Part shown: piece by piece, positions 13,559 to 25,773 of the stretch
Position numbering within the stretch: position 1 is the first letter of the stretch
Layout: every line of letters begins with the position of its first letter
DNA from: an uncultured Verrucomicrobiales bacterium
GTDB lineage: Bacteria; Verrucomicrobiota; Verrucomicrobiia; Verrucomicrobiales; Akkermansiaceae
Direction: 5' to 3'
DNA length: 54,440 bases
Assembly: GCA_937128235.1 (NCBI GenBank)
Contig: CAKZMG010000213.1
Coordinates: forward strand, 77,255 to 131,694
Program-made: the position numbers and the translations under genes
Notes under the pieces: generated by a model
Database searches by the model: none
What the model was told of the DNA's origin: nothing
What the model saw: the letters and a program-made list of their open reading frames with translations, nothing else

Positions 13559-14131
13559 ATGGCAGCAGTAGATTACAGGAACCCTCAGAACATGCTCTCT
13601 AAGTCATCAGAGAACAAAGAGACACCTGTGTCTGACACTTCAGCCTTCCAGAATTTCTACGATCTATTTTTCAGAGATTACGGGTTTTTAAGTAGATCAC
13701 AGTATCTCTTTTGTTTTCTCACCGGCCTCACTATACTACCTCTGCTAGTTCTCAAATTGATAAAGAACAAAGGCTACATTGCAAGTGTGTCACCAAAGCA
13801 GCATACCTTTAAGTTCATTATTCTTCTAGCTTTAATATGCTCTTACATTGTTGGCTACTACATAGAAAATTTCGCTGTAGCAATAATCCTAGGTGTTTTA
13901 GTTGGCTTAATTTTATTTGTTAAAATACTCATCTTTATCATTACTACATTTTCCAGAATAGCAGCAAAAAGATTTGCAGACACAGGTTGCGCTAACTACC
14001 CCATATCTTCTTTCGTTCTTCTATTTGTTTTAGGCTTCATTGGCACACTGATAAACTTTTTCTTTTTATTACTAACTTCTAGCTCAGAAAATAAACCTGT
14101 TCATTCTAAACATACCGTTATTATTAGTTAA
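13559..14131 (+). CDS. DUF805-like membrane protein inserted between nuoF and nuoG
   Basis: A 190-residue inner-membrane protein of unknown function. After a polar N-terminus (residues 1-35), the FFRDYGFLSRSQYLFCF stretch recalls the GR.SRxEYW motif of DUF805, and RIAAKRFADTGCANYP corresponds to the family's R..DTG signature. Four membrane helices are likely (about 48-65, 80-98, 103-130, 150-172). The start ATG lies one base after the nuoF stop; a second in-frame Met at residue 12 is an alternative. Base composition is visibly more AT-rich than nuoF and nuoG. It is not a complex I subunit, and unlike the three cassettes downstream it has no flanking inverted repeats. Confidence 0.8.
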   Translation: MAAVDYRNPQNMLSKSSENKETPVSDTSAFQNFYDLFFRDYGFLSRSQYLFCFLTGLTILPLLVLKLIKNKGYIASVSPKQHTFKFIILLALICSYIVGYYIENFAVAIILGVLVGLILFVKILIFIITTFSRIAAKRFADTGCANYPISSFVLLFVLGFIGTLINFFFLLLTSSSENKPVHSKHTVIIS

Positions 14132-15904: not shown

Positions 15905-15906
15905 AT

Positions 15907-15946
15907 TTACACAGAATTAACAAAATGTTTCAGAATTAACAAAATT
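15907..15946. repeat. Left inverted-repeat arm of cassette A
   Basis: Contains CAGAAT at 15912 and 15931 and the variant CAAAAT at 15921 and 15940 (spacing 9, 10, 9). It is complementary to 16371-16410 with about 8 mismatches in 40. It begins two bases after the nuoG stop codon. Confidence 0.75.
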
Positions 15947-15955
15947 ACTTTTAAA

Positions 15956-16342
15956 ATGACTAAATACGATCTAGCTGGAGAAGTTATTGGATGCGCCATG
16001 GAGGTACATTCAGTGCTAGGTCATGGACTGAATGAATCTGTTTATCAAAAATCACTCGCTATCGAATTAGCAACAAAAGGATTTGAAGTCATCGTCGAAA
16101 AGAAAATCACTGTTTACTATAAAGGTCATGATGTAGGACTCTTCTCCGCTGATCTATTTATCAATCAGACTCTTATCGTAGAATTAAAAGCTGTCCGAAA
16201 TATTCTACCTGAGCACGAAGCTCAACTCGTCAACTACTTATCAGCTACCAAAACCGAAGAAGGAGTTCTCATCAACTTTGGAGCACCAAGTCTTCAATTC
16301 AAAAAGAAATTCAAAGACTACAAACCACCAAAACTTTCATAA
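15956..16342 (+). CDS. GxxExxY protein (PD-(D/E)XK nuclease-like fold), cassette A
   Basis: Small protein of the GxxExxY family (128 residues). The name-giving motif is GLNESVY (about 24-30). A PD-(D/E)XK-type core is visible as SADLFINQ...LIVELKAV, with Asp near 64 and Glu-Leu-Lys near 75, followed by HEAQLVNYL and VLINFG. The biological role of the family is unknown; a nuclease-type fold is predicted. It sits inside the inverted repeat between nuoG and nuoH, in the direction of the operon. The second GxxExxY protein at 17719 is only distantly similar, so this is not a recent tandem duplication. No Shine-Dalgarno sequence is visible. Confidence 0.9.
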   Translation: MTKYDLAGEVIGCAMEVHSVLGHGLNESVYQKSLAIELATKGFEVIVEKKITVYYKGHDVGLFSADLFINQTLIVELKAVRNILPEHEAQLVNYLSATKTEEGVLINFGAPSLQFKKKFKDYKPPKLS

Positions 16343-16370
16343 AAATCAAACGAACGCGCAACCCAAGGAA

Positions 16371-16410
16371 ATTATGTTAATTCTGAACCATTCTGCATAA
16401 TTCTGTATTA
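16371..16410. repeat. Right inverted-repeat arm of cassette A
   Basis: Carries ATTCTG at 16380, 16390 and 16400 (exact 10-base spacing) and the variant ATTATG at 16371. It is the reverse-complement counterpart of 15907-15946. It ends 16 bases before the nuoH start. Confidence 0.75.
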
Positions 16411-16426
16411 AAAAAATTTAACACAC

Positions 16427-17674
16427 ATGGAAACTCTTATCCCTATCATCATTATCCTCGCTAAGGTCATTGGCATCACGTTTGTGCTGACCTTGCCGAT
16501 TATTGCGTATTCAGTTTATGCTGAGCGTCGTTTTGCGGCTGTTATTCAAGACCGTGTGGGGCCTAACAGAACTGGAATCCCGCTTACTATCTTCGGATTT
16601 AAAAAGGACATAAGCCTCTTCGGTCTTCTACAGCCTCTTGCGGATGGTCTTAAGTTTATACTGAAGGAGGACTTTGTTCCTTCACACGTGAATAAATTTT
16701 TCTTCTGGCTTGCTCCAGCTCTCACCATGGTTCCTGCACTCGTCACGCTCTCAGTAGTCCCCTTCGGTTCTGAGTTATTCGGTGAGAAACTAGTGATCGC
16801 AGATGTGTCTGTGGGTCCACTTCTCATCTTTGCGGTAGCGTCACTTTCAGTTTACGGAATCACGCTCGCTGGCTGGGCATCGAACAACAAGTATTCATTC
16901 TTCGGTGGTGTTCGCTCATGTGCTCAGATGATTTCTTACGAGATCGCGCTCGGACTCTCTATCATCCCAGTGCTCATGCATTTCGGTGATTTAAACCTCT
17001 CTAACATCGTAGCAGAACAGGCTAAAAATGGCTGGCTCATCCTCCCTCTCTGGGGAGAAGGTCTCACTACGGAGCGCATGTTGCTCTGGATACCGATGAT
17101 TATTTCCTTCTTCATCTTCACCATCTCCATCTTCGCAGAAACAAACCGTATGCCATTCGACTTACCAGAATGTGAAACGGAACTCGTTGGTGGTTACCAC
17201 ACGGAGTATTCCTCTATGAAATTCGCTCTTTTCTTCCTAGGAGAATACGCAGCAATGATCGTAGGTTCTGCCCTGATCGTGACCCTCTTCCTCGGAGGTT
17301 GGTCCATCGGGTTCGGTGCAGATGCTTGGGTCGTCAGCACATTTGGCGACTGGGCTGGGCTCATCCACCTCGGAGTGTTTCTCGCCAAGCTCGTAGGCTT
17401 CATCCTCTTCTTCATACTCATCCGCTGGACAGTCCCACGTTTCCGCTATGATCAACTCATGAAACTCGGCTGGGTCGTATTCTTCGAAGCCGCACTGATA
17501 AACATCCTCATCGCAGCAATTATCATGACCTACACCAGAGGTCATCTATCCACTGCACAGTTTGTCGGTGCAGCGATTGGCGTGATCGTCTTCTCTGCTG
17601 TCATGTTCTACATTGCAAAGTCGCTTGAAAAAATGCTCGCTAAAGACAAAGTAACCACCGCCATATCTGACTAA
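16427..17674 (+). CDS. nuoH: NADH-quinone oxidoreductase subunit H
   Basis: Membrane-arm subunit (ND1 type) that forms the quinone chamber with NuoB and NuoD. Family signatures are RVGPNRTGIP (about 41-50), GLLQPLADGLKFILKED, and the acidic third loop with ETNRMPFDLPECETELVGGYHTEY (about 237-260). About eight to nine membrane helices are predicted; 415 residues is slightly longer than the usual 325-400. It is bracketed by accessory cassettes on both sides, and the cassette B arm begins within a few bases of its stop codon. Confidence 0.97.
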   Translation: METLIPIIIILAKVIGITFVLTLPIIAYSVYAERRFAAVIQDRVGPNRTGIPLTIFGFKKDISLFGLLQPLADGLKFILKEDFVPSHVNKFFFWLAPALTMVPALVTLSVVPFGSELFGEKLVIADVSVGPLLIFAVASLSVYGITLAGWASNNKYSFFGGVRSCAQMISYEIALGLSIIPVLMHFGDLNLSNIVAEQAKNGWLILPLWGEGLTTERMLLWIPMIISFFIFTISIFAETNRMPFDLPECETELVGGYHTEYSSMKFALFFLGEYAAMIVGSALIVTLFLGGWSIGFGADAWVVSTFGDWAGLIHLGVFLAKLVGFILFFILIRWTVPRFRYDQLMKLGWVVFFEAALINILIAAIIMTYTRGHLSTAQFVGAAIGVIVFSAVMFYIAKSLEKMLAKDKVTTAISD

Positions 17675-17680
17675 ATTTAA

Positions 17681-17712
17681 CCGCTGATTACGCTGATTTT
17701 AAACTGATTTTT
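17681..17712. repeat. Left inverted-repeat arm of cassette B
   Basis: Three CTGATT hexamers at 17684, 17693 and 17704 (spacing 9 and 11). It matches the reverse complement of 18140-18171 at 30 of 32 bases. It begins six bases after the nuoH stop. Confidence 0.92.
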
Positions 17713-17718
17713 TCTCTA

Positions 17719-18141
17719 ATGAACTATCCTGAACATCAATACCCACACTCAGAGCTGACTAAGCAGATTATTGCTGCGGCTTATCGAGTGAGTAGTGATC
17801 TAAAGAATGGATTAGTAGAAAAAATCTATGAAAATGCACTTTGTATCGATTTCGCTGAACAGAACATAATCTATTCTCAACAAGAACAATTCCCCGTTTA
17901 CTATCATGAAAAAAACTGTGGCACCCTCATCCCAGATTTGATTGTCGATGAAAAAGTCATCGTTGACACGAAAGTAGTCAAAGAAATCAATAGTGAACAC
18001 ATCTCAAAAATGCAAAGTTACCTCAGCATATCAGGGTTAAAAGCAGGACTAATCATCAATTTTAAATACACATCAGTAACAGTCCGAAGAGTGGCAAACA
18101 CGAATCCAACCACAAATCCAGAAGAAATCAGATTGAAATAA
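17719..18141 (+). CDS. GxxExxY protein (PD-(D/E)XK nuclease-like fold), cassette B
   Basis: A 140-residue GxxExxY-family protein, divergent from the one at 15956. GLVEKIY (about 32-38) is the signature motif. The nuclease-like core is LIPDLIVDEKVIVDTKVV, where the Glu of the ELK motif is replaced by Asp (DTK). MQSYLSISGLKAGLIINF corresponds to the last conserved block. The C-terminal 20 residues are Asn/Thr/Pro-rich. The ORF is co-directional with nuo and enclosed by the 32-bp inverted repeat; its stop codon overlaps the right arm. Function is unknown. Confidence 0.88.
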   Translation: MNYPEHQYPHSELTKQIIAAAYRVSSDLKNGLVEKIYENALCIDFAEQNIIYSQQEQFPVYYHEKNCGTLIPDLIVDEKVIVDTKVVKEINSEHISKMQSYLSISGLKAGLIINFKYTSVTVRRVANTNPTTNPEEIRLK

Positions 18142-18171
18142 AAATCAGTCTAAAATCAGCGCAATCAGCGG
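18140..18171. repeat. Right inverted-repeat arm of cassette B
   Basis: Three AATCAG hexamers at 18143, 18154 and 18163 (spacing 11 and 9, the mirror image of the left arm). It overlaps the GxxExxY stop codon and ends about 39 bases before nuoI. Confidence 0.92.
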
Positions 18172-18210
18172 CAAAAAAATTTAAAGCAATAACTACAATT
18201 CTAAACAGCA

Positions 18211-18780
18211 ATGGCTAAAGTCACTAAAATATCTCGCCCCAAGCTCAGCAAGACTGATGAGGTTTATCTCATTGGGATCTTCAAAGGCACTCTTGTCACT
18301 CTCAAGCATGCCTTTAAGTCTGTCTTCGGAAAATCTCGCGGTGCTGATTCACTCAACTCATCTGGTCTCGGTGTCACGATGCAGTATCCAGAGGAAAAAT
18401 GGGACGATGAACTCCCGGAATACTACCGCGGAGCACCCGCACTCGTCACCGATGAGCAAGACCGTGAGCGCTGTGTCTCTTGCCAGCTTTGTGAATTCAT
18501 CTGCCCGCCAAAAGCCATCAAGATCATCCCAGGAGAAATCCCTGAAGGTGATGAATGGGAAAAAGTGGAAAAGAGACCACAGGAGTTCGACATCGACATG
18601 ATCCGCTGCATCTACTGCGGACTCTGCGAGGAAGTCTGCCCTGAGCAAGCCATCTACCTAAGAAAAGACTACGCCATCACCGGCACAAGCCGTGAAGAAA
18701 TGGTTCACAATAAACAAAAACTCTACGAAATCGGCGGCAAAAGAGTCGGACTAGTCAACAAGTGGAATGAGTTGAAATAG
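18211..18780 (+). CDS. nuoI: NADH-quinone oxidoreductase subunit I
   Basis: 23-kDa ferredoxin-type subunit (TYKY) carrying clusters N6a and N6b. Both [4Fe-4S] motifs are complete: CVSCQLCEFICPPKAI (about 89-104) and CIYCGLCEEVCPEQAI (about 131-146). The N-terminal segment GIFKGTLVTLKHAFKSVFG is the usual amphipathic membrane-contact helix. At 189 residues the length is normal. It is separated from nuoH by cassette B and from nuoJ by cassette C. Confidence 0.97.
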   Translation: MAKVTKISRPKLSKTDEVYLIGIFKGTLVTLKHAFKSVFGKSRGADSLNSSGLGVTMQYPEEKWDDELPEYYRGAPALVTDEQDRERCVSCQLCEFICPPKAIKIIPGEIPEGDEWEKVEKRPQEFDIDMIRCIYCGLCEEVCPEQAIYLRKDYAITGTSREEMVHNKQKLYEIGGKRVGLVNKWNELK

Positions 18781-18810
18781 TTATTTGGTAATGGGTAATT
18801 GTTATTTGGA
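18780..18810. repeat. Left heptamer-type repeat array of cassette C
   Basis: Short degenerate repeats of the form GTTATTTG / GTAATGG / GTAATT / GTTATTTGG follow each other with 6-8 base spacing. The first base is the G of the nuoI stop codon TAG. A small hairpin GGCTC-TGGG-GAGCC lies just inside at 18817-18830. Confidence 0.65.
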
Positions 18811-18849
18811 TTTGTGGCTCTGGGGAGCCAGTTAAAAAAGGAAGAAATC

Positions 18850-19236
18850 ATGAAAAAAAACGTTAAATCATTTGAGGATCTCGAAGCTTATAAAGCTAGT
18901 CGAGTTTTTAGAATGTTCATTCATTCCAAAATCGTTCCTTTATTATTAGCAAAGAATGAATACGATCTCCTCAATCAAATCAAACGATCATCTCGATCAA
19001 TCACCGCCAATGTCGCTGAAGGTTATGGCAGGTTTCACTACATGGATAACTCAAAGTTCTGCGGGATATCAAGAGGATCACTTTATGAAACTCTAGAACA
19101 CTGCATCACAGCAAATGATGAGCTACTCATCTCCAACGACCTACTCACAGAATCAAGAACACTTTTCGATAAAGCAATTGCTCCACTAAACGGATACATC
19201 AACTACCTATTCAGAGCAGCAGACAAATCAAAATAA
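18850..19236 (+). CDS. Four-helix bundle protein, bS23 / 23S rRNA intervening sequence protein family
   Basis: A 128-residue member of the bS23 (IVP) family, which forms a pentameric four-helix-bundle barrel related to the Avd protein of diversity-generating retroelements. Recognisable blocks: KSFEDLEAYKASR, YDLLNQIKRSSRSITANVAEGYGR (residues about 38-61) and GISRGSLYETLEH. I choose ATG 18850 over an upstream TTG because it gives the family N-terminus and is preceded by a good Shine-Dalgarno (AAGGAAG, 18838-18844). Such a signal is missing from the neighbouring genes. Family role is unresolved; a nucleic-acid-binding function is plausible. Confidence 0.92.
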   Translation: MKKNVKSFEDLEAYKASRVFRMFIHSKIVPLLLAKNEYDLLNQIKRSSRSITANVAEGYGRFHYMDNSKFCGISRGSLYETLEHCITANDELLISNDLLTESRTLFDKAIAPLNGYINYLFRAADKSK

Positions 19237-19260
19237 GCACTGGCGCACTAGCGCTATAGC

Positions 19261-19293
19261 CCCCATTAACAAATAACCATTCACGATTAACCA
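19261..19293. repeat. Right heptamer repeat array of cassette C
   Basis: Read on the minus strand it is GTTAATC, GTGAATG, GTTATTT, GTTAATG in exact 7-base register. It is complementary to the left array. It ends about 7 bases before the nuoJ start codon. Confidence 0.65.
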
Positions 19294-19300
19294 CCACACC

Positions 19301-25413: not shown

Positions 25414-25773
25414 ATGCTATTTAAGCCTTCAAAAGATGCAGTTCTCTATAATGAACTGCCTAAAAAATGCCCGGATTGTAATACCCCAGTATCGCCCACC
25501 ACTCCGGAGAACTCTAAGAAGGCTAAATTTTGTGTATTGATTGGCATACTTGCCACGGCAGCTTGGTTGATCATATTTTTTAAATTCATCTACACGAAAA
25601 ACCCAAATCAGGTTTATACCGGTCAGGTAGCTCGAGCGATTATTCTAAATTCCTGGCCCGCATTTGTGGTAGGCTTTCTAGCTTCTAAGTTGCCCCAAGT
25701 TGTCCACCGTAAATGCATAAAATGCTCTTGGAAAAAAACGTATCAGATCAAACTTCCTGACTTGAAGAAATAG
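25414..25773 (+). CDS. Small membrane protein with two CxxC pairs
   Basis: A 119-residue protein of unknown function. CPDC (about 24-27) and CIKC (about 101-104) flank two membrane helices (about 38-58 and 70-90). In a hairpin topology both pairs would be on the same side, where they could make one zinc-binding site. It starts 18 bases after nuoN and is probably read through from the nuo operon, but it has no known link to complex I. It ends 14 bases from the convergent DUF3147-like gene. Confidence 0.7.
   Translation: MLFKPSKDAVLYNELPKKCPDCNTPVSPTTPENSKKAKFCVLIGILATAAWLIIFFKFIYTKNPNQVYTGQVARAIILNSWPAFVVGFLASKLPQVVHRKCIKCSWKKTYQIKLPDLKK

Follow-up and report, generated by a model that had tools for sequence, protein, structure and literature searches.

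The window, a 54,440-nucleotide stretch of DNA from an uncultured Verrucomicrobiales bacterium that was analysed as a whole, contains a complex I (nuo) operon in which the nuoG/nuoH, nuoH/nuoI and nuoI/nuoJ junctions each hold one small open reading frame (ORF) between complementary arms: a GxxExxY ORF, a divergent GxxExxY ORF and a bS23 ORF, respectively. The parts of the three cassettes are as follows.

15906..15951, forward strand: cassette 1 left arm, tandem units CAGAATTAACAAAAT..CAGAATTAACAAAATT
15956..16342, forward strand: cassette 1 GxxExxY ORF (predicted PD-(D/E)XK), nuoG/nuoH junction
16365..16411, forward strand: cassette 1 right arm, reverse complement of the cassette 1 left arm
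17676..17712, forward strand: cassette 2 left arm, CCGCTGATTACGCTGATTTTAAACTGATT
17719..18141, forward strand: cassette 2 divergent GxxExxY ORF, nuoH/nuoI junction
18140..18176, forward strand: cassette 2 right arm
18780..18832, forward strand: cassette 3 left arm, GTTATTT GGTAATG GGTAATT GTTATTT GG, then the short hairpin GGCTCTGGGGAGCC
18850..19236, forward strand: cassette 3 bS23 / four-helix-bundle (23S rRNA IVP) ORF, nuoI/nuoJ junction
19239..19291, forward strand: cassette 3 right arm

The arm-to-arm spans of cassettes 1, 2 and 3 were 506, 501 and 512 nt, and the distance from the last base of the upstream stop codon to the start of the left arm was 1, 1 and -1 nt, in agreement with an earlier note on this DNA that had put the spans at about 500-515 bp and the arm starts within about 6 bases of the stop. 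The arms of cassette 2 (37 nt) were 89% complementary. Relative to dinucleotide shuffles, the arm pairs gave z scores of approximately 8-11, 12-15 and 5-6.5 for cassettes 1, 2 and 3, and for each cassette 0 of 100 shuffles equalled the real pair. A scan of the whole 54 kb for inverted pairs returned the three nuo junctions as its top three places (scores of 29, 27.5 and 19, with a next-best score of 17 and a 99th percentile of 14.5); no other inverted repeats of this kind in the window are as strong as two of the nuo arm pairs, and that of cassette 3 is weaker and still significant. Arms, ORFs, shuffles and scan agree on the layout that the note had described, one ORF with complementary arms in each of three consecutive junctions, and its remark that the three cassettes differ in sequence applies to their arm words, which are unlike one another. 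An Rfam search of the window gave no match, and no rRNA match was obtained in it.

ORFs 15956-16342 and 17719-18141 matched PF13366/TIGR04256 (GxxExxY) with E values of 3e-39 to 1e-30, and ORF 18799-19236 matched PF05635/TIGR02436 (8e-20 and 4e-19); the ORF list starts the latter at a TTG at 18799, and the ATG at 18850 is the likelier start. Matches of the cassette ORFs in Pfam and NCBIfam were confined to families of the PDDEXK_3/GxxExxY and 23S_rRNA_IVP types. The catalytic D, (E/D)xK and QxxxY were conserved in the GxxExxY alignment, and the best fold matches of GxxExxY, for which the AlphaFold model had a pLDDT of 91.5, were Cas4 (4ic1) and lambda exonuclease; on active-site residues and modelled fold, the GxxExxY ORFs are predicted PD-(D/E)XK (PDDEXK_3) proteins. 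We know of no catalytic site in S23. The two GxxExxY genes tested are under purifying selection (pN 0.14-0.22 versus pS 0.73-0.88). Cassette genes were approximately as diverged as host genes, and the present copies are therefore old.

Cassettes were absent from the corresponding junctions of close relatives, in which the empty junctions mostly measured 7-69 nt, and arms recurred around other bS23 and GxxExxY genes of the window's own genome. Empty junctions in relatives and arms at other loci were the two outcomes on which the earlier note had staked its idea of an element, and the picture of discrete arm-ORF-arm cassettes akin to 23S rRNA intervening sequences stands. Among 58 related genomes of the same order, arms flanked 47 of 64 S23 genes (73%) and 39 of 49 GxxExxY genes (80%), compared with 0-2% of ordinary nuo genes as a control, and in a cross-phylum sample they flanked 60 of 82 S23 genes (73%); approximately one quarter of the S23/GxxExxY genes had no arms at the threshold used. 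None of the S23 genes at the 70 of 80 cross-phylum loci checked lay within 23S rRNA, only tRNAs being nearby. The recurrence of the same arrangement around the gene family in many phyla points to a class of mobile mini-element that is widespread and little described. No event of movement was observed, nor was a target-site duplication recognised; recent in-genome copies with arm-limited ends were also not found, the sole near-identical pair of loci (L166/L167, 99%) being truncated inside arm and ORF.

The distribution is patchy, and this bears on the quite unlikely alternative that the proteins are domesticated operon regulators, vertically inherited and immobile, which bind repeat words in DNA or in their own and other mRNAs. 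The purifying selection on the two GxxExxY genes, the filling of an identical junction in several congeners, and the interpretation of heptamer repeats elsewhere as regulator sites (PMC4679880, PMC2700814) would accord with such a role, but the presence of nuo cassettes was as scattered over the NuoH tree (14 changes) as when the labels were shuffled, the cassette gene family also occurs in unrelated operons (sucC/sucD, nrdB/nrdA and upstream of groES), and copies that lack the ORF and have related spacers are found at separate sites, as described below.

The arms are built of tandem short words whose length follows the enclosed protein, 7 nt for S23 and 9-10 nt for GxxExxY. Self-match in S23 arms was 0.54 at lag 7 and 0.51 at lag 14 compared with ~0.26 at most other lags, and GxxExxY arms matched themselves at lags 9-10; the word core was [A/G]G[T/G] in S23 arms and of the ACxGA type in GxxExxY arms. 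Heptamer arms were likewise present at the S23 genes of Nostoc sp. KVJ20. Polymerase slippage, which has been invoked for heptamer arrays (PMC4692102, PMC4679880), could expand heptamer simple sequences near genes and produce inverted repeats by accident, an account that we find hardly credible since arm copies matched in register (identity 0.85-0.90 versus 0.65-0.73 when shifted by one unit) and flank one gene family and not control genes. We regard it as very unlikely that the cassettes are carried along passively by some unrelated transposase or recombinase that acts in trans, with S23 and GxxExxY as cargo of some other role, for example in defence. PD-(D/E)XK proteins frequently serve as nucleases in defence and the cassettes encode no transposase, both of which suit this explanation; cargo, however, would not be expected to have arms whose word length varies with the protein family between them, as it does across phyla.

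Mini-elements of ~70-160 nt that have GxxExxY-type arms and no ORF co-occurred with the cassette in one genus, being present in those of its genomes that hold that cassette. Arrays of ACAGAATT were found in all four genus genomes with the matching cassette type and in none of the eight without it (control, 0). Approximately 11 of the 19 array loci were paired mini-elements, several of which had related spacers at different sites; paired ORF-less copies were found in three genus genomes (G002, G004 and G011), and the window's own genome had a single unpaired array only. Dispersed ORF-less copies occupied many kinds of intergenic site. Arrays of AGTAG heptads were present in G004, though no examined S23 gene of that genome had AGTAG arms, and the association of S23 with heptad arrays over genomes has genome size as a confounder. 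The period-8 control for heptad arrays gave 13 versus 38 genomes, and the reversed-pattern control is no true null because other heptamers match the reversed pattern too. Searching the 58 genomes for ACAGGATT-type words gave few matches, which lay beside a GxxExxY gene in two genomes and had no verified connection to one in two others; they are too sparse to be of use.

The arms paired in the minimum-energy RNA fold of all three cassettes (z of -4.0, -6.4 and -2.3, the third clearly the weakest), and all 32 nuo cassettes were co-directional with the operon. Over all loci, gene orientation was same/same in 83 cases versus opposite/opposite in 7, as counted with the first S23 and GxxExxY HMMs, which possibly included antisense seed translations and gave a few antisense matches; arm, wobble and period counts come from clean HMMs and hardly differed from the first-HMM counts. 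Pairing and co-direction in the nuo operon would both be expected of an operon intervening sequence whose arms form an mRNA stem that RNase III cuts, giving mRNA segments of differing stability and placing the stem under selection. We nevertheless consider this unlikely: arm mismatches on the transcribed strand showed no G-U bias, the tendency being slightly reversed (233 G-U versus 301 A-C), a stem needs neither word structure nor a protein-specific word length, and ORF-less copies are dispersed between genes. The mismatch counts and the ORF-less copies also speak against the processing at the RNA level that the earlier note had proposed. Since the ORF-less mini-elements between genes have the same arms, spread at the DNA level fits better, and we favour a DNA-level mobile, RAYT/REPIN-like system over RNA processing.

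As an explanation of the whole, the three junctions have probably each received a single copy of a mobile mini-element whose protein recognises its own arms. Such an element would consist of one small gene with an inverted arm on either side, sited directly behind the upstream stop codon, and would be read with the operon, needing no promoter and riding on operon transcription; this reliance would account for the orientation of the cassettes. We infer that the encoded protein binds its own arm type, either on DNA or on the single strand of a hairpin, that the elements are mobile at present and, as to the chemistry, that in GxxExxY the Cas4/lambda-exonuclease-like PD-(D/E)XK domain cuts at the arms. 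Copies could spread with or without the ORF, by analogy with REPINs and RAYT genes. On this view, what is known from rRNA operons as the 23S rRNA intervening sequence would be a special case of such an element. More tentatively, S23 and GxxExxY proteins could be the mobilising factors of bacteria-wide repeat-word elements, of which the heptanucleotide repeats of Nostoc, Xanthomonas, Beggiatoaceae and Geobacter would be non-coding forms and the 23S rRNA intervening sequences a coding form that landed in rRNA.

If true, one mechanism would join three puzzles, namely where 23S rRNA intervening sequences come from, what two very common and now 'hypothetical' protein families (four-helix-bundle/S23 and GxxExxY) do, and what produces the heptanucleotide repeats known from separate reports on several phyla. 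It would constitute a protein-plus-repeat mobile system without a classical transposase, would predict that each protein binds its own arm word, and would make core operons, nuo, sucCD and nrd among them, recurrent insertion sites.

In RAYT/REPIN systems, a gene lies between inverted repeats of a type that is also scattered over its genome in short pairs without an ORF. The ORF-less paired arrays of the ACAGAATT type, dispersed in genomes that hold the cassette, resemble these, whereas the proteins here are S23 or PD-(D/E)XK and not Y1/HUH tyrosine transposases, and the arms are word arrays and not single REP hairpins. MITEs have a conserved terminal inverted repeat and a target-site duplication in common with an autonomous transposon; here the ORF-less mini-elements share arms with the cassettes, and neither a transposase nor a target-site duplication was recognised. 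S23, regarded here as an Avd-like, pentameric protein, belongs to the same four-helix-bundle family as the Avd accessory proteins of diversity-generating retroelements; a homologue, XCC0516 (2gsc), has been described as being assembled from five four-helix bundles (PMC10053308), and the four to five heptamers of an arm may correspond to the five S23 subunits of such a ring. Heptanucleotide repeats on record comprise GGGAATC in Xanthomonas, GGGGA(C/T)T in Nostoc, TAACTGA in Beggiatoaceae and heptamer sites in Geobacter. Those of Xanthomonas are intergenic tandem heptamers, mostly of four units, near a neighbouring ORF and often in inverted pairs (PMC4692102), and are thus similar to the arms described here, including those of Nostoc sp. 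KVJ20; the Xanthomonas/Nostoc and Beggiatoaceae heptamer papers make no mention of S23. The earlier note's term 'undescribed class' was too broad for the 23S rRNA version, which is known together with tandem GACAGAT heptamers directly before the S23 ORF in Coxiella (PMC4990558), and appears to hold for cassettes in operons, GxxExxY cassettes and the link to dispersed repeats, of which no description was found in open PMC papers. The 23S rRNA intervening sequences of Leptospira and Coxiella are like the present cassettes in their single S23 gene, terminal inverted repeats, length of ~430-510 nt and patchy occurrence, and the Coxiella heptamers beside the S23 ORF parallel the period-7 S23 arms. 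Unlike them, the cassettes described here lie in mRNA operon junctions and not in 23S rRNA, two of the three in the nuo operon carry a predicted PD-(D/E)XK nuclease and only cassette 3 carries S23, and their arms have many dispersed ORF-less copies.

In the window, the complex I operon (nuoD-N, + strand) carries a single small ORF at each of the nuoG/H, nuoH/I and nuoI/J junctions, and each ORF is enclosed by a pair of complementary arms:

15906-15951/16365-16411: complementary arm pair, nuoG/H, enclosing a GxxExxY ORF (cassette 1)
15956-16342, + strand: ORF, nuoG/H junction, GxxExxY/PDDEXK_3 match
17676-17712/18140-18176: complementary arm pair, nuoH/I, enclosing a GxxExxY ORF (cassette 2)
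17719-18141, + strand: ORF, nuoH/I junction, GxxExxY/PDDEXK_3 match
18780-18832/19239-19291: complementary arm pair, nuoI/J, enclosing an S23 ORF (cassette 3)
18799-19236, + strand: ORF, nuoI/J junction, match to the four-helix-bundle/23S rRNA IVP family

These junctions were the top three places in an inverted-pair scan of the whole 54 kb; the nuoI/J pair was weaker than the other two, yet better than all shuffles. Family matches, arms and scan thus bear out an earlier note's claim of three arm-bounded single-ORF cassettes in consecutive nuo junctions. The nuoF/nuoG junction, for which the window-wide scan returned no strong arm pair, is occupied by a 190-aa membrane-protein-like ORF (13559-14131) with a weak DUF805 match under the Pfam cut-off, and a 119-aa ORF without Pfam or NCBIfam match (25414-25773) immediately follows nuoN.

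The same genome, a 3.86 Mb draft, contains one further GxxExxY gene and three further strong bS23 genes, and the check for flanking arms proposed in that note placed 4/4 within arm pairs, the words of which differ among all four. The sites are sucC-sucD, nrdB-nrdA, upstream of groES and before a DUF3686 ATPase gene; the gene preceding the groES-side copy, represented by its C-terminus only, reads by eye like dnaK and has no Pfam match. The arm-ORF-arm arrangement is confirmed to be far more general than had been claimed: tests across the order (58 genomes) gave arms at z>4 for 47/64 S23 and 39/49 GxxExxY genes, a level reached by 0-2% of ordinary nuo-operon genes used as a control, and arms accompanied 60 of 82 S23 genes sampled across phyla (Verrucomicrobia, Bacteroidetes, Proteobacteria, Clostridia, Acidobacteria, Cyanobacteria and others). 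An Rfam scan of 70 of 80 cross-phylum loci found rRNA at none. Two Proteobacteria had a tRNA gene immediately downstream of the S23 gene (L216:4375-4445 and L221:4395-4467).

The arms are built of tandem words whose length tracks the enclosed protein family. Self-match of S23 arms was 0.54 at lag 7 and 0.51 at lag 14, with most other lags at ~0.26, a period equal within the order and across phyla, and the word core was [A/G]G[T/G] at every seventh base; GxxExxY arms peaked at lags 9-10. Words per arm were usually 4-5 (median 4.4), and paired arms were copies in register, beyond mere arrays of one word. For the S23 homologue XCC0516 (2gsc) an assembly of five four-helix bundles is reported; that 4-5 words per arm could meet the five subunits of such an assembly is suggestive only.

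When the nuo region was taken from 53 other genomes and the window, eight different junctions carried a total of 32 cassettes, all of them pointing in the operon direction. Of the S23/GxxExxY genes in these genomes, roughly 240 in all, ~13% are such nuo cassettes, in a region estimated at ~0.35% of sequence. On the NuoH tree, cassette presence takes 14 changes, the very number that shuffled labels give on average, with at least 12 forced by supported branches. Cassette-free junctions, sought in close relatives as the note had advised, were indeed present; at the three sites occupied in the window, most measured just 7-69 nt. The nuoI/nuoJ junction of one related genome (G010, locus L106) retains a ~270-nt shortened S23-cassette remnant with its end hairpins. 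Where both neighbouring genes run the same way, cassettes across all loci pointed with them in 83 cases vs 7 against, and the left arm usually began a few bases from the upstream stop codon.

Processing of the cassettes at the RNA level had also been proposed, and in folded RNA the arms pair in all three window cassettes. Selection on a stem, however, predicts a bias towards G-U in arm differences, the opposite of that counted in the sense-strand pair (G-U 233 vs A-C 301). RNA-level processing, which may still occur, is therefore not supported as the reason for the arms.

The arm type of cassette 1 was searched for, as a pattern of three ACAGAATT-type words in tandem, across 12 genomes of the genus; arrays were present in 4/4 genomes with that cassette type and 0/8 without, while a control pattern gave zero matches. 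The window's own genome yielded one exact match, an unpaired array away from cassette 1, the arms of which are absent from the matches because they are too diverged for the pattern. Paired mini-elements of 70-158 nt, mostly ~140 nt, made up ~11 of the 19 array loci examined, and some ORF-less copies at different genomic sites have common spacer sequence. AGT-heptamer arrays occurred in 34/43 genomes with S23 matches vs 4/15 without (Fisher p 4.5e-4, with genome size as a confounder); period-8 arrays were much rarer. At two different loci of G004, a related genome, GxxExxY genes (L166 and L167) are 99% identical over 430 nt, one copy being truncated within arm and ORF. At L001/L150, the cassette is surrounded, on both sides of the GxxExxY gene, by nested arm-like arrays belonging to other types (ACCACGGAAAGCACGGAA; ATTCGTGAAGATTCGTGG). 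In another relative, intergenic regions of L294 (G006:C2:320500-340400), with pattern matches across G006:C2:321-447 kb, are dense in many arm-like array types connected through GCCCTGCGGGGC-type hairpins and a 'GGCTTGATGAAGC' linker that recurs, and look like a composite repeat landscape.

Both GxxExxY genes tested were under purifying selection, the family alignment kept D66, (E/D)xK78 and Q90xxxY94, and the folds nearest to the structure model (pLDDT 91.5) were Cas4 and lambda exonuclease. Because of this selection, the kept active-site residues and the fold likeness, the GxxExxY proteins are likely to be active DNA nucleases; S23 has, to our knowledge, no catalytic site. On the best reading, the enclosed protein would act on its own arm words; the analysis shows the cassettes' anatomy, specificity and scatter, and we infer binding, cutting and current movement.

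The cassettes are best read as a family of arm-ORF-arm elements that are, or once were, mobile, with the 23S rRNA intervening sequence (IVS) as one case. The Coxiella IVS has tandem GACAGAT heptamers directly before its S23 gene and a terminal stem of 28 bp (PMC4990558). Heptamer arrays without a known partner have been reported in Xanthomonas and Nostoc (PMC4692102), Beggiatoaceae (PMC4679880) and Geobacter (PMC2700814). In Nostoc sp. KVJ20 we found 193 matches to three tandem GGGGAYT words and several S23 genes with heptamer arms, one a close GGGGA(T/C)A variant; taken with the reported arrays, these arms suggest, but do not prove, that heptamer arrays and S23 cassettes belong to one common system.
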